This document shows positions 57,434-61,986 of a stretch of DNA of 64,000 bases, one piece after another; positions within the stretch are counted from its first letter, which is position 1; the number at the start of each line of letters is the position of its first letter. The notes beneath the pieces are model-generated. The model made no database searches. It had not been told where the DNA came from and saw only the letters and a list, made by a program, of their open reading frames with translations. The position numbers and the translations under genes are program-made. This stretch comes from Acidipropionibacterium acidipropionici (lineage in GTDB: Bacteria; Actinomycetota; Actinomycetes; Propionibacteriales; Propionibacteriaceae), in assembly GCF_001441165.1 (NCBI RefSeq), contig NZ_CP013126.1:124001-188000 (forward strand), in the 5' to 3' direction.

Positions 57434-58228
57434 CTACTGGGAGTTCTGGTTTCCCTGATCGCCTGGCTTCCCCTGGGTTCCCCAGGGCTGCTGGGACGGA
57501 TCGGGCTGCCGGGCGGCTTGAGGATCGGGCAGCTGACCGGAGGCCTGGGGGGCCGCATATCCCGGTGCCTGGGCCGGATTCCCCTGGCCGATCTGGGGGG
57601 CCTGACCCTGGTTCTGCTGAGCCTCAGGGCGCTGGCTGATCTCCCCGAAGTTGACGCCGGGCGCCGAGCGCACCGCCGGATCGTCGACCTGGAAGTAGCT
57701 GGCCTTCTCGAAGTGGAACATGCCCGCCACCAGGTTCGACGGGAAGCTCTCGACCTTGGTGTTGTAGGTCTTCACATTCGCGTTGTAGTAGCGCCGGCCT
57801 GCGGCGATGCGGTCCTCGGTGTCGGAGAGCTCGCGCTGCAGCTCCAGGAAGTTCGTGTTGCTGCGCAGCTCCGGGTAGGCCTCCACCTGGGCCACCAGGT
57901 TGTGGACGGCTCCCGAGAGCTGGGACTCGATCTGGGAGCGCTGCGGGTCCGGGGTGTTGCCCTGGGAGTTGGTGGCCATGGCGACGGCCTGGTTGCGCAG
58001 CCGGGTGACCTCCTCGAGGGTGTTGCGCTCGTGAGCGGCGCCGGCGCGCACGGTCTCGACCAGATTCGGGATGAGTTCGTAGCGGCGGTTCAGCTCGACG
58101 TCGACCTGGCGCCAAGACTCCTGGATGGTGTTGCGCAGCTTCACGAAGGAGTTGTAGGGGGCGATGAACAACCCCACTCCTCCGCCGATCACGACGACGA
58201 GAATGATGAGGATGATGAGCAGGGCCAT
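57434..58228 (-). CDS. lemA: LemA family protein
   Basis: A 264-residue membrane protein. One N-terminal transmembrane helix (ALLIILIILVVVIGGGVGLFI) is followed by the LemA coiled-coil domain (YNSFVKLRNTIQESWRQVDVELNRRYELIPNLVETV, residues 25-60). The last 60 residues or so are a Pro/Gln-rich tail (QQNQGQAPQIGQGNPAQAPG). Function in bacteria is not established. It lies 82 bases downstream of the sortase-like gene in the same direction. Confidence 0.87.
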   Translation of the reverse strand: MALLIILIILVVVIGGGVGLFIAPYNSFVKLRNTIQESWRQVDVELNRRYELIPNLVETVRAGAAHERNTLEEVTRLRNQAVAMATNSQGNTPDPQRSQIESQLSGAVHNLVAQVEAYPELRSNTNFLELQRELSDTEDRIAAGRRYYNANVKTYNTKVESFPSNLVAGMFHFEKASYFQVDDPAVRSAPGVNFGEISQRPEAQQNQGQAPQIGQGNPAQAPGYAAPQASGQLPDPQAARQPDPSQQPWGTQGKPGDQGNQNSQ

Positions 58229-58310: not shown

Positions 58311-58967
58311 TCAGGTGCGGTTGCGCGTGGAGACGAGGTGCCCCAGGGCGACCGCGCGGCTCGAGGTGGAGACCATGTCCTGGCTGGTGGTCAGCGTGAT
58401 GAGAGGCTGCTGGGCGACGGCGTCGGCATGGCCGGGCACCGGGTCGAGCACCCAGTCATCGGTGCTGTCGACGGTGAGGTCCTGCGGGGCGACGTCGATC
58501 CGGTAGGTGAACACCGCCGAGGAGGTCTCCACGACGACGGTGTCGCCGGCCCGCAGTTCGCGCAGGTCCCGGAATCCGTTGGCCCCGGTCGCCGAGCGCC
58601 CTGCCACCGCGAAGTTGCCCTTCTGGCCAGGCAGCGCGGTGTCGCGGTACCAGGCCAGCCCGCTGGCCAGGGCGGAGTCGGCGTCGTCGGTGGAGGCGTA
58701 GACGGGCCAGGCCCAGCCCGACCCGAGCCGCGGGATCCTCATCACCGCGATGAGCTGGCCCTCGGCAGGCCCCTTGGCCGCCGAGGCCTGCGGGGAGGGC
58801 GCCGCCGACCAGGATCCGGCGGCCGAGGATGCGGCGGCGCGCGCCCGGTCGCCGGGCAGCAGCGTGCTGCCCCACCACGTCCACCCGGCCCACAGCGCCG
58901 CGACGACGACCAGGGTGGCCAGGCTGACGACGGTCCAGCCGAAGGGGCGAAGACGTCGGCGACTCAT
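58311..58967 (-). CDS. Class E-like sortase lacking catalytic Cys and His
   Basis: A 218-residue protein with an N-terminal transmembrane helix (12-32), a linker and a sortase beta-barrel domain. Key segments align with class E sortases: GNFAVAGRSATGANGF in place of the usual GNxxxAGHRxTxGxPF, and ITLTTSQDM in place of LTLTTCxP. The catalytic His is Arg124 and the catalytic Cys is Ser195 (codon AGC); Arg204, nine residues later, is kept. The DNA is otherwise intact, so this is not a frameshifted gene. Transpeptidase activity is therefore unlikely. Its start overlaps the upstream membrane-protein gene by four bases. Confidence 0.78.
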   Translation of the reverse strand: MSRRRLRPFGWTVVSLATLVVVAALWAGWTWWGSTLLPGDRARAAASSAAGSWSAAPSPQASAAKGPAEGQLIAVMRIPRLGSGWAWPVYASTDDADSALASGLAWYRDTALPGQKGNFAVAGRSATGANGFRDLRELRAGDTVVVETSSAVFTYRIDVAPQDLTVDSTDDWVLDPVPGHADAVAQQPLITLTTSQDMVSTSSRAVALGHLVSTRNRT

Positions 58968-59838: not shown

Positions 59839-59904
59839 CGAGGGCAGGCAAACCTGGCGACGTCACTGGTATTCCAGTGACGTCGCCAGGTTTGCCTGCC
59901 CTCG
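59839..59904. repeat. 66-base long hairpin (long-hairpin family, copy B)
   Basis: A perfect 31-base stem (59839-59869 with 59874-59904) closes a TATT loop. Its arm matches the arm at 26527-26557 at 24 of 31 positions, with every change compensated on the other side. It lies between two minus-strand genes, downstream of the one ending at 59955. Confidence 0.85.
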
Positions 59905-59954: not shown

Positions 59955-60797
59955 TCACGCGAAGTAGCTCGCCCCGCCGGGCGGCCCGGGCGACGGCTCC
60001 GGGGCCTCGTCGGTGAAGGGCGTCGCTCCACCGGCCATCCGCTCCAGGGCCGGCCCGTGCACCACCCGGAACGGGAAGGGCGCCCCGGCGCAGCGCCTGG
60101 TCACCTCATCGACCGGCAACGGGGCATGGCTCGCAGCCAGGATGACGTTGCCGTACCGGCGTCCCTTGAGGGTGGCCGACTCGGCCTCCAGGACGACCTG
60201 CCCGAAGACCTCCCTCAACCCGGCAACCGCGCCGCGGGTCAATGTCATCGGCGCCGAGTCGGCGACATTGGCCACCAGGATCCCGTCGGGCACCAGCACC
60301 CTCGAGATGTCGGCGAAGCATTCGGCGGTCACCAGTTCACCGGGCACCCGGGCCCCGGCGAAGGCGTCGAGGATGACGACGTCGGCGAAATCCTCGCGCA
60401 TGGCCGCGATCCCCGCCCGGCCGTCGAGAGGCCGCACCTTGATCCCCGATCGGGGAGGCAGCGGCGCCTTGCGACGCACCTCCTCGGTGAGTCCGGCGTC
60501 GGGCTCCAAGACGATCTGGGGTGACGTCGGCCTGGTCGCACTGACATATCGGGCCAGGTTCATCCCGGCCCCGCCGATGTGCACCACCCGCATCCGCTCC
60601 CCGGCGGGCCGGTGCAGGTCCAGGTGGTCGGCGATGCGCTCCATGTAATCGAACTCGAGGAGGGTCGGGTGGGCGGGATCCACCCAGGACTGGTCCGCCC
60701 CTCCGATCCGCACGAGCCAGGCCCCGGGCCTCTGCGGATCGGGAACCAGGTGCTCCTCGCCGGGATCCGGTGCCTCGCGCCGGCCCCGGTCAGCCAC
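59955..60797 (-). CDS. Spermidine-synthase-like methyltransferase-fold protein
   Basis: A 280-residue protein with the Rossmann fold of spermidine synthases: MRVVHIGGAGMNLARYV as motif I, IVLEPDAGLTEEV as the acidic strand-2 motif, and ADVVILDAFAGARVPGELVTAECF as the region that in true synthases holds the catalytic Asp. It lacks a clear putrescine-binding pattern, so the polyamine role is doubtful. GTG 60797 overlaps the end of the aminotransferase gene by eight bases, which indicates an operon; the longer open frame upstream has no support. Confidence 0.78.
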   Translation of the reverse strand: MADRGRREAPDPGEEHLVPDPQRPGAWLVRIGGADQSWVDPAHPTLLEFDYMERIADHLDLHRPAGERMRVVHIGGAGMNLARYVSATRPTSPQIVLEPDAGLTEEVRRKAPLPPRSGIKVRPLDGRAGIAAMREDFADVVILDAFAGARVPGELVTAECFADISRVLVPDGILVANVADSAPMTLTRGAVAGLREVFGQVVLEAESATLKGRRYGNVILAASHAPLPVDEVTRRCAGAPFPFRVVHGPALERMAGGATPFTDEAPEPSPGPPGGASYFA

Positions 60798-61986
60798 CGA
60801 AGATCTCCATCCGGCGAATCCTCGCGAAGGCCTCGTGGATCCGCTTGACGTCCAGGGTGGCGGCCAACCGGAGGTACCCCTCCCCGGACGCGCCGAAGGC
60901 GGGCCCCGGAATGGTGAGCACATGGGCCTGGTGGAGCATGGCGTCCATCACCTCCGCCGACGACAGCCCGGTGTCGGCGATGTTGACCCACAGGTAGATC
61001 GCCCCGCCCGGTTCCAGGGCGTGCATCCTCGGGGTGTCGCAGATCTCCCGGTAGGCCGCCATGAGCCGGGAGCGGTAGAGCTCGGCGATGGGCGGCATGA
61101 TCTCGTGGCGCAGCCGGATCGCGGCCAGGGCGGCGCGCTGGGAGGGCGCCGGGGCGGTGTAGACGATGTTCTCGTTGATGTCGGTCATCGCGCCGATGAT
61201 CGGCGCCGGTCCCATCGCATAGCCGATCCGCCAGCCGGTCATGGCGTAGTTCTTCGAGAAGGAGCGCACCGTCACGGTGCGCTCCGCCATGCCGGGCAGG
61301 GTGGCGAAGGGGATGAAGGGCTCGGCGTAGGAGAAGGAGGTGTAGATGTCGTCGGCCAGCACCAGCAGATCGTGCTCGGCGGCCACCCGGGCGATGACCA
61401 GCTGCGCCTCGCGGCTCCAGCAGACCCCCGACGGGTTGGTCGGGGTGTTGAGGATGATCGCCCGGGTCCGCGGGGTGATCGCGGCCTCCAGGGCCTCGGG
61501 CCGCAGCTGGAAGCCGTCGGCCTCGCTGGTCGGCACGTGGACGGGCACGCCGCCGGCCTGCTCGATCTGGCCGTCGTAGCAGTTGAAGTAGGGCTCGGGG
61601 ACGATCACCTCCCGGCGCCGGGCCGGCGGCAGGTCGGGGTCGAGCACGGCCATGCAGGCCAGCGCCATCGCATGGCAGGCCGACGCCGTCACCAGCACCT
61701 GGCCGGGCTCGACGTCGACGCCGTAGTCGGCGCGCTGGGCCTCGACGATGGCCGCCACGAGCTCGGGATCCCCGTGGGGGGCCGTGTAGTGGGTGTGCCC
61801 GGCCAGGGCGTCGTCCATCGCCGCACGGGTGATGCGCTGATCGGTGGTGATGTCGGGGTCGCCGATGGAGAAGTTGATGAGATCGTCGAGGCCCGCCCGC
61901 TGGCCGGCGGCCACGGCGTCCGCCAGGATCGAGTGGGGCCGCACCCGGTGCCGGGGGGCCAGGAATCGGGCCGCGTCTTCGCGCAT
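60790..61986 (-). CDS. Class I/II pyridoxal-phosphate aminotransferase
   Basis: A 398-residue fold-type I aminotransferase with the PLP lysine K245 in RSFSKNYAMTGWRIGY, substrate-binding NTPTNPSGV and C-terminal arginine in GEGYLRLA. The sequence fits the aspartate/aromatic aminotransferase group (MalY/PatA-like members also exist), so the amino acid is not certain. It starts at an ATG with GGAGGA in the leader and is followed in the operon by the spermidine-synthase-like gene. Confidence 0.86.
   Translation of the reverse strand: MREDAARFLAPRHRVRPHSILADAVAAGQRAGLDDLINFSIGDPDITTDQRITRAAMDDALAGHTHYTAPHGDPELVAAIVEAQRADYGVDVEPGQVLVTASACHAMALACMAVLDPDLPPARRREVIVPEPYFNCYDGQIEQAGGVPVHVPTSEADGFQLRPEALEAAITPRTRAIILNTPTNPSGVCWSREAQLVIARVAAEHDLLVLADDIYTSFSYAEPFIPFATLPGMAERTVTVRSFSKNYAMTGWRIGYAMGPAPIIGAMTDINENIVYTAPAPSQRAALAAIRLRHEIMPPIAELYRSRLMAAYREICDTPRMHALEPGGAIYLWVNIADTGLSSAEVMDAMLHQAHVLTIPGPAFGASGEGYLRLAATLDVKRIHEAFARIRRMEIFGG

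Follow-up and report, generated by a model that had tools for sequence, protein, structure and literature searches.

In the genome of Acidipropionibacterium acidipropionici, a gene of the class E sortase type encodes a protein, here named P0001, from which both the catalytic cysteine and the catalytic histidine are missing. The gene lies in a stretch of 64,000 nucleotides that was analysed as a whole (positions 124,001 to 188,000 of contig NZ_CP013126.1, assembly GCF_001441165.1; hereafter the window). P0001 has the characteristics of a pseudoenzyme: its catalytic residues are lost, its fold is kept, and the gene is under purifying selection. We consider it very probable that the protein is catalytically dead and is kept by selection. 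The more complete view, namely that P0001, a homologue of class E sortases anchored in the membrane, has lost transpeptidation and is selected for a non-catalytic job, is in our opinion likely, and as presented here it rests on four elements: the lost residues, a fold predicted with high confidence, purifying selection and a conserved locus. An earlier, sequence-only reading of this DNA had suggested a conserved pseudo-enzyme, a suggestion that stands, since Cys and His are lost in all six close relatives, the fold is that of a sortase barrel and the gene evolves under purifying selection.

The codons of P0001 agree with what had been described from the sequence. The frame is open and yields a product of 218 amino acids, the AGH position reads AGR (Arg124), the TTC position reads TTS (Ser195, codon AGC), and the arginine located nine residues past Ser195, Arg204, is kept. 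CGC, the codon for Arg124, is one base away from a His codon, and AGC is one base away from a Cys codon; the whole protein contains no cysteine. When the features of class E sortases are considered one by one, the Cys of the TLTTC motif is replaced by Ser195 and the His of AGH by Arg124, while the Arg of strand beta8 (Arg204), the Tyr of the S3 subsite (Tyr107) and the N-terminal membrane anchor (a hydrophobic segment, forming the helix of residues 8-55 in the model) are present. The Pfam Sortase profile (PF04203) matches P0001 with an E-value of 2.9e-20 and 72.7 bits (cut-off 26.6), which assigns it to the sortase superfamily. The best NCBIfam subfamily is class_E_sortase (NF033747; E-value 2.7e-43), with a score of 148.3 bits that lies under the curated cut-off of 160, and intact homologues score 212.9 (L039) and 191.6 bits (L182) with the same profile. 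These cut-offs are strict: P0003 (L002), the second of the two PF04203 proteins in the genome, is class F-like and possesses all three residues (HTY, Cys and Arg), and scores 71.9 bits with NF033748 against a cut-off of 166. None of the five genomes of the window's genus reaches the NF033747 cut-off, and each has one class E match. The question raised earlier, whether an active sortase E exists elsewhere in the genome, thus receives a negative answer in this search, as the only class E match is P0001 itself.

The AlphaFold2 model of P0001, built on an alignment of 45 sequences including P0001, has a mean predicted local distance difference test score (pLDDT) of 91.8 and shows a long N-terminal helix followed by a beta barrel. 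In a Foldseek search against the PDB, the top match was sortase E of Streptomyces avermitilis (5go6; E-value 5.8e-17, template modelling (TM) score 0.86 by target length, 40% identity), followed by 5go5 of the same species (TM score 0.85 by target length); sortase E of Thermobifida fusca and SrtF of Corynebacterium diphtheriae ranked later. According to the model, the fold of P0001 is therefore a sortase barrel, with sortase E as its best structural match, and in this respect the class assignment made from the sequence held when structures were compared.

The loss is not a peculiarity of one strain. We compared six loci, which we call Acidipropionibacterium-type: those of the five genomes of the window's genus (the window's own included) and that of Acidipropionibacterium timonense (genus code g13). 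Position 124 is Arg in all six; position 195 is Ser in three, Asn in two and Gly in one, and neither His nor Cys is found in any of them. A single-strain loss is thereby ruled out. The same observation refutes a sequencing or gene-calling artefact in one genome, whose probability we consider negligible, because both residues are also absent in congeners, including A. jensenii DSM 20535 (G047) and A. timonense (G053).

Homologues of P0001 were found in 120 of 147 genomes of the family Propionibacteriaceae, the remaining 27 having no match. Residues were read in 130 homologues from 119 of the 120 matched genomes (a larger set of 120 from 109 genomes and a smaller set of 10 from 10 genomes); the match in G069 (E-value 8e-4) and most weaker second matches of other genomes were left out. 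Only loss of the Cys was counted as death of the enzyme. The reason is that, according to a study of F. alocis SrtA (PMC13257024), S. aureus SrtA requires the catalytic His, whereas F. alocis SrtA and C. difficile SrtB can do without it, and therefore loss of the His alone would not prove inactivity; the same study reports that a Cys-to-Ala exchange abolished the activity of F. alocis SrtA, and says that this agrees with earlier work, sortases lacking the Cys being inactive in the cases studied. By this measure, 53 of the 130 homologues, distributed over 13 genus codes, lack the Cys (45 of 120 in the larger set and eight of 10 in the smaller one). A further six of the 120 (L041, L044, L045, L048, L057 and L067) keep the Cys and have Arg, Asn or Gln at the His site; they are natural candidates for His-independent sortases or for intermediates of loss. 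In genus code g21 all 14 matched genomes hold a Cys-lacking copy (L350-L356, L359, L070, L088, L096, L104, L110 and L143). A wider scan of contigs gave a different picture: among the best 80 of 571 relatives, 43 new rows carry the name of another family or none, and 40 of these keep both His and Cys, the exceptions being Kribbella capetownensis and a Nocardioidaceae metagenome-assembled genome (MAG), both with His and Ser, and a Friedmanniella MAG with His and Ala. The earlier picture of one odd protein was right about P0001 but too narrow, because the same locus is repeatedly without Cys across the family and keeps it in other genera.

The residues that took the place of the catalytic pair bear on the idea of a changed chemistry, in which Ser195 would be a new nucleophile of a serine transpeptidase or hydrolase and Arg124, or a Tyr, would replace the His. 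In the larger set, Ser indeed occupies the Cys site in 21 of the 45 Cys-lacking sequences, more often than any other residue, and the pair Tyr/Ser occurs in 13 of the 120. However, the Cys site is also occupied by Ala (7), Asn (6), Glu (3), His (3), Arg (2), Gly, Asp and Gln (1 each), the Ser codon AGC is only one base away from the Cys codon TGC, and no conserved new base accompanies the Ser. The His site of the 45 sequences is Tyr in 16, Arg in 12, Gln and His in six each, Leu in two and Asn, Val and Thr in one each. Moreover, position 195 varies between Ser, Asn and Gly in the clade of P0001 itself. For the Acidipropionibacterium-type clade, serine chemistry is rejected because of this variation, and the changed chemistry that the sequence-only reading had offered as an option is not supported; we regard Ser195 as a new nucleophile as very improbable. 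The 13 Tyr/Ser copies belong to several genera (L065, L083 and L092 in g14; L077, L093, L095, L105-L107 and L114 in g16; L099, L118 and L123), and whether they converged depends on where the g14 copies belong, as their position in the tree is unstable.

Several lines of evidence show that the dead copies are maintained. First, four Acidipropionibacterium pairs have ratios of non-synonymous to synonymous substitution (dN/dS; Nei-Gojobori method, 142-152 codons) of 0.24, 0.40, 0.43 and 0.32. The values are 0.14-0.38 in nine other Cys-lacking pairs, 0.15 and 0.41 in two pairs that keep the Cys and lack the His, and 0.04-0.26 in six intact pairs. The dead copies are thus under purifying selection, somewhat relaxed. 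Second, 51 of the 53 Cys-lacking copies and all six Acidipropionibacterium-type copies are free of internal stops; G057 and G043 have one TGA each. Third, several positions are nearly invariant in the 45 Cys-lacking sequences (Gly117, Tyr155, Val177 and Pro178 in all 45, Asn118 in 44). Finally, Arg204 is present in 41 of these 45, Tyr107 also in 41, and both in 37; the Arg is likewise kept in all eight Cys-lacking sequences of the smaller, 10-genome set. A report on SrtE1 of Streptomyces coelicolor (PMC5148588) describes that the corresponding residues, Arg329 and Tyr229, form hydrogen bonds with a bound tripeptide.

How often the Cys was lost was studied in a tree of 124 rows and 145 columns, from which the two trait columns had been removed and in which 48 of 120 inner branches are weak. 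Reversible parsimony gives eight changes at the Cys site and nine at the His site; when regain is forbidden, the best tree requires 14 losses of the Cys, and at least eight, five or four after collapsing branches with support under 80, 90 or 95, respectively. Instead of many losses, one ancient dead paralogue, corresponding mostly to one old clade, might have taken over the position of the intact copy. This could explain a clade of 47 non-canonical rows (Shimodaira-Hasegawa-like approximate likelihood ratio test (SH-aLRT) 88), and would fit with genomes that hold two copies: Tessaracoccus bendigoensis has an intact copy (L182) and one with Tyr and Gly (L189), and six g21 and two g11 genomes each have an intact and a Cys-lacking copy. 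On the other hand, that clade still contains six Cys-keeping and four His-keeping rows, more losses of the Cys lie outside it (g20, g11, Kribbella capetownensis and the Friedmanniella MAG), and a single clade of all 48 Cys-lacking rows is rejected (approximately unbiased test, p-AU 0.00046). The clade is also unstable: its make-up differs from that of the 44-row clade of a smaller tree, which placed the g14 Tyr/Ser copies elsewhere and the g11 His/Ala copies inside, and long-branch attraction may inflate it. We consider a single ancient paralogue unlikely.

The gene neighbourhood was compared as well. Across the family the order is methyltransferase, sortase, pyrE, lemA, and in Kribbella it is sortase, pyrE, lemA. 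Ninety of the 120 copies adjoin at least one of these three neighbours on the same strand, 47 of them non-canonical and 43 with His and Cys; the 30 copies outside the neighbourhood, some of which lie on short contigs, comprise four non-canonical and 26 intact ones. Among the 45 Cys-lacking copies the number is 42. Dead and intact copies are found beside the same genes and therefore occupy the same kind of place. In Tessaracoccus bendigoensis, L182 (His/Cys) stands beside pyrE and L189 (Tyr/Gly) beside the methyltransferase gene and lemA.

Table 1. Features of the pseudosortase locus, with positions in the window
Feature	Position	Strand	Remarks and basis
Pseudosortase, class E type (P0001), 218 aa	58311..58967	-	N-terminal membrane helix and sortase barrel; open reading frame, profiles, model
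Arg124 codon CGC	58596..58598	-	At the catalytic His position (AGH to AGR); sequence, alignment
Ser195 codon AGC	58383..58385	-	At the catalytic Cys position (TTC to TTS); sequence, alignment
Arg204 codon	58356..58358	-	Kept catalytic/substrate-binding Arg; aligned with Arg329 of S. coelicolor SrtE1
Tyr107 codon	58647..58649	-	Aligned with Tyr229 (S3-subsite Tyr) of SrtE1; 5cuw alignment
P0002	58964..59806	-	Pro/Gln-rich N-terminal region and multi-pass membrane protein; 4-nt overlap of its stop with the start of P0001
lemA	57434..58228	-	Downstream gene of the conserved neighbourhood; PF04011, 7.2e-55
Upstream gene of the family-wide neighbourhood	59955..60923	-	Synteny

In the window (Table 1), lemA is the next gene downstream, as had been noted, and the gap of 82 nt that separates it from the pseudosortase gene is too small for pyrE. 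The upstream gene is presumably methyltransferase/spermidine-synthase-like. Between it and the pseudosortase gene lies P0002, for which no match was found in Pfam or NCBIfam. Its stop overlaps the start of P0001 in the sequence ATGA, and the 4-nt overlap is present in all six Acidipropionibacterium-type loci (once as GTGA), in agreement with the proposed translational coupling. P0002 had been described as a Pro-rich membrane protein with four helices; that it is a membrane protein holds, and the number of helices is plausible, a simple hydropathy scan giving three segments at the threshold used and three to five among the six orthologues. Upstream of this gene, at 59839-59904, two perfectly matching inverted arms of 31 bp enclose a 4-bp loop; since the genome contains similar palindromes at about 12 places, this is a repeated palindromic element.

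The loss of catalysis might also be a stage of slow decay, the class E sortase having become dispensable once another sortase took over. Homologues of the class F sortase keep His, Cys and Arg in all 30 loci examined, including the six Acidipropionibacterium-type ones. A strong class F match (E-value at most 1e-30) accompanies 32 of the 47 non-canonical syntenic copies and six of the 43 intact ones (raw Fisher test, 1.7e-7), and decay would also be in line with the 27 genomes without a match, with selection that is weaker than in intact copies, and with the internal TGA of the dead copies in G057 and G043. However, the association with class F may merely reflect shared ancestry: only two independent pairs exist on supported branches, and six on all branches, with no signal. 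As a proven driver of Cys loss, class F is not accepted, since the raw association is strong and the independent pairs are too few. Furthermore, dN/dS values of 0.14-0.43, open frames in nearly all dead copies and near-invariant fold positions favour a function, so that we judge a gene on its way out to be improbable. Among the 15 non-canonical copies without a strong class F match, seven belong to genomes with a second class E copy that has His and Cys (G140, G098, G107, G135, G114, G102 and G034); for the other eight, no other intact sortase was shown. The number of sortases in each genome was not taken from a family-wide PF04203 listing, because this gives one match for the window's genome where the direct search gives two.

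Which job could a sortase without catalysis perform? The cleft of the extracytoplasmic domain, which formerly received sorting signals, would still bind a partner, either a peptide or a protein, through Arg204 and Tyr107, and P0001 would serve surface proteins as receptor, chaperone or scaffold. In Acidipropionibacterium the Pro-rich membrane protein, whose translation is coupled to that of P0001, would take part in this, and the class F sortase would carry out covalent anchoring. That the retained function is the binding of a sorting-signal-like peptide is possible, with the balance leaning against it, and some other structural or scaffold role has about an even chance; the role of a binding or assembly factor, put forward in the sequence-only reading, is accordingly a putative one. 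On a broader scale, we tentatively propose that in the Propionibacteriaceae the same class E orthologue repeatedly became a receptor or assembly factor at the cell surface that works without catalysis, and that the grip on the sorting signal outlives the nucleophile, a proposal to which we give somewhat less than an even chance.

Several observations weigh against a selected non-catalytic role of this kind. dN/dS is somewhat higher in Cys-lacking than in intact copies, and at least six genomes of the genus code of A. timonense (g13) have no match. Arg204 or Tyr107 is gone in eight of the 45 Cys-lacking sequences. Tyr107 is no strict mark of the class either, as no more than 44 of 55 intact copies have it. 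Phe199, present in all 55 intact copies, is found in at most seven of the 45 Cys-lacking ones; the corresponding numbers are 53 and 21 for Phe119, and 55 and 33 for Ala122. Constraint is thus relaxed around the nucleophile, and conservation does not extend to the entire cleft; the same comparison shows that the grip residues are kept better than the catalytic surroundings. A P0002-type partner adjoins the gene only in the six Acidipropionibacterium-type loci, with weak matches at two others (L056 and L102), out of 120. Anchoring by class F is put in doubt by Actinoplanes missouriensis, in which, according to a published report (PMC13251363), SrtE did the anchoring and a mutant lacking all four class F genes showed no phenotype. 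Finally, weak searches of the window's genome found no clear sorting-signal protein. Pfam Gram_pos_anchor gave nothing over its cut-off there (13 of 14 control genomes have matches at the same E-value); neither did TIGR01167, which three of the five genomes of the genus exceed, and which is non-discriminating, being exceeded in nine of the 14 control genomes, E. coli among them. The pattern LP[DE]TG has 20 sites in this genome (10 in the reversed control), none of which precedes a hydrophobic C-terminal tail, and the LAXTG DNA pattern is not above its control (157+129 versus 168+151). In A. jensenii, the end of a long open frame (L330) carries LPGTG, then a hydrophobic stretch and finally a basic tail; its product is a possible substrate of the class F sortase.

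Sortases are described as being defined by their His-Cys-Arg triad. If our proposal is true, a lineage would have given up the Cys, and often the His, several times and yet retained the gene with its locus, its fold and, in most cases, the Arg; the sortase fold would then be useful without catalysis, and class E sortases would have had a second, non-catalytic role from the start. Annotations of actinobacterial sortases would then include dead members, and the natural series of homologues that lost only the His, only the Cys, or both would suit the study of the second function. A pseudosortase group of this kind was not found in the titles and abstract openings of open-licence papers.

With the class E sortases of known structure (5go5 and 5go6, and SrtE1, 5cuw), P0001 shares the predicted fold, the membrane anchor, the catalytic Arg and the Tyr of the S3 subsite, with 40-41% identity to 5go6 and 5go5 in the Foldseek alignment; it differs from them in the replacement of both Cys and His, in containing no cysteine and in its score below the curated cut-off. 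Its closest counterparts by position are the syntenic class E sortases of Enemella dayhoffiae, Propioniciclava, Microlunatus endophyticus and Kribbella, which resemble it in sequence and in having some or all of the methyltransferase gene, pyrE and lemA as neighbours and which, unlike P0001, keep the His-Cys-Arg set. The class F sortase, of the Cutibacterium acnes type, is a member of the sortase family present in the same genome, but belongs to a different class and keeps the three residues. A parallel from outside the sortases is SipA of Streptococcus pyogenes, described in PMC4049620 as having a signal-peptidase fold without catalytic residues and as being needed for pilus assembly. Although SipA is unrelated in fold and family, and although its role in pilus assembly was tested experimentally whereas that of P0001 is proposed, it may serve, by analogy, as a model for a non-catalytic mode of work.
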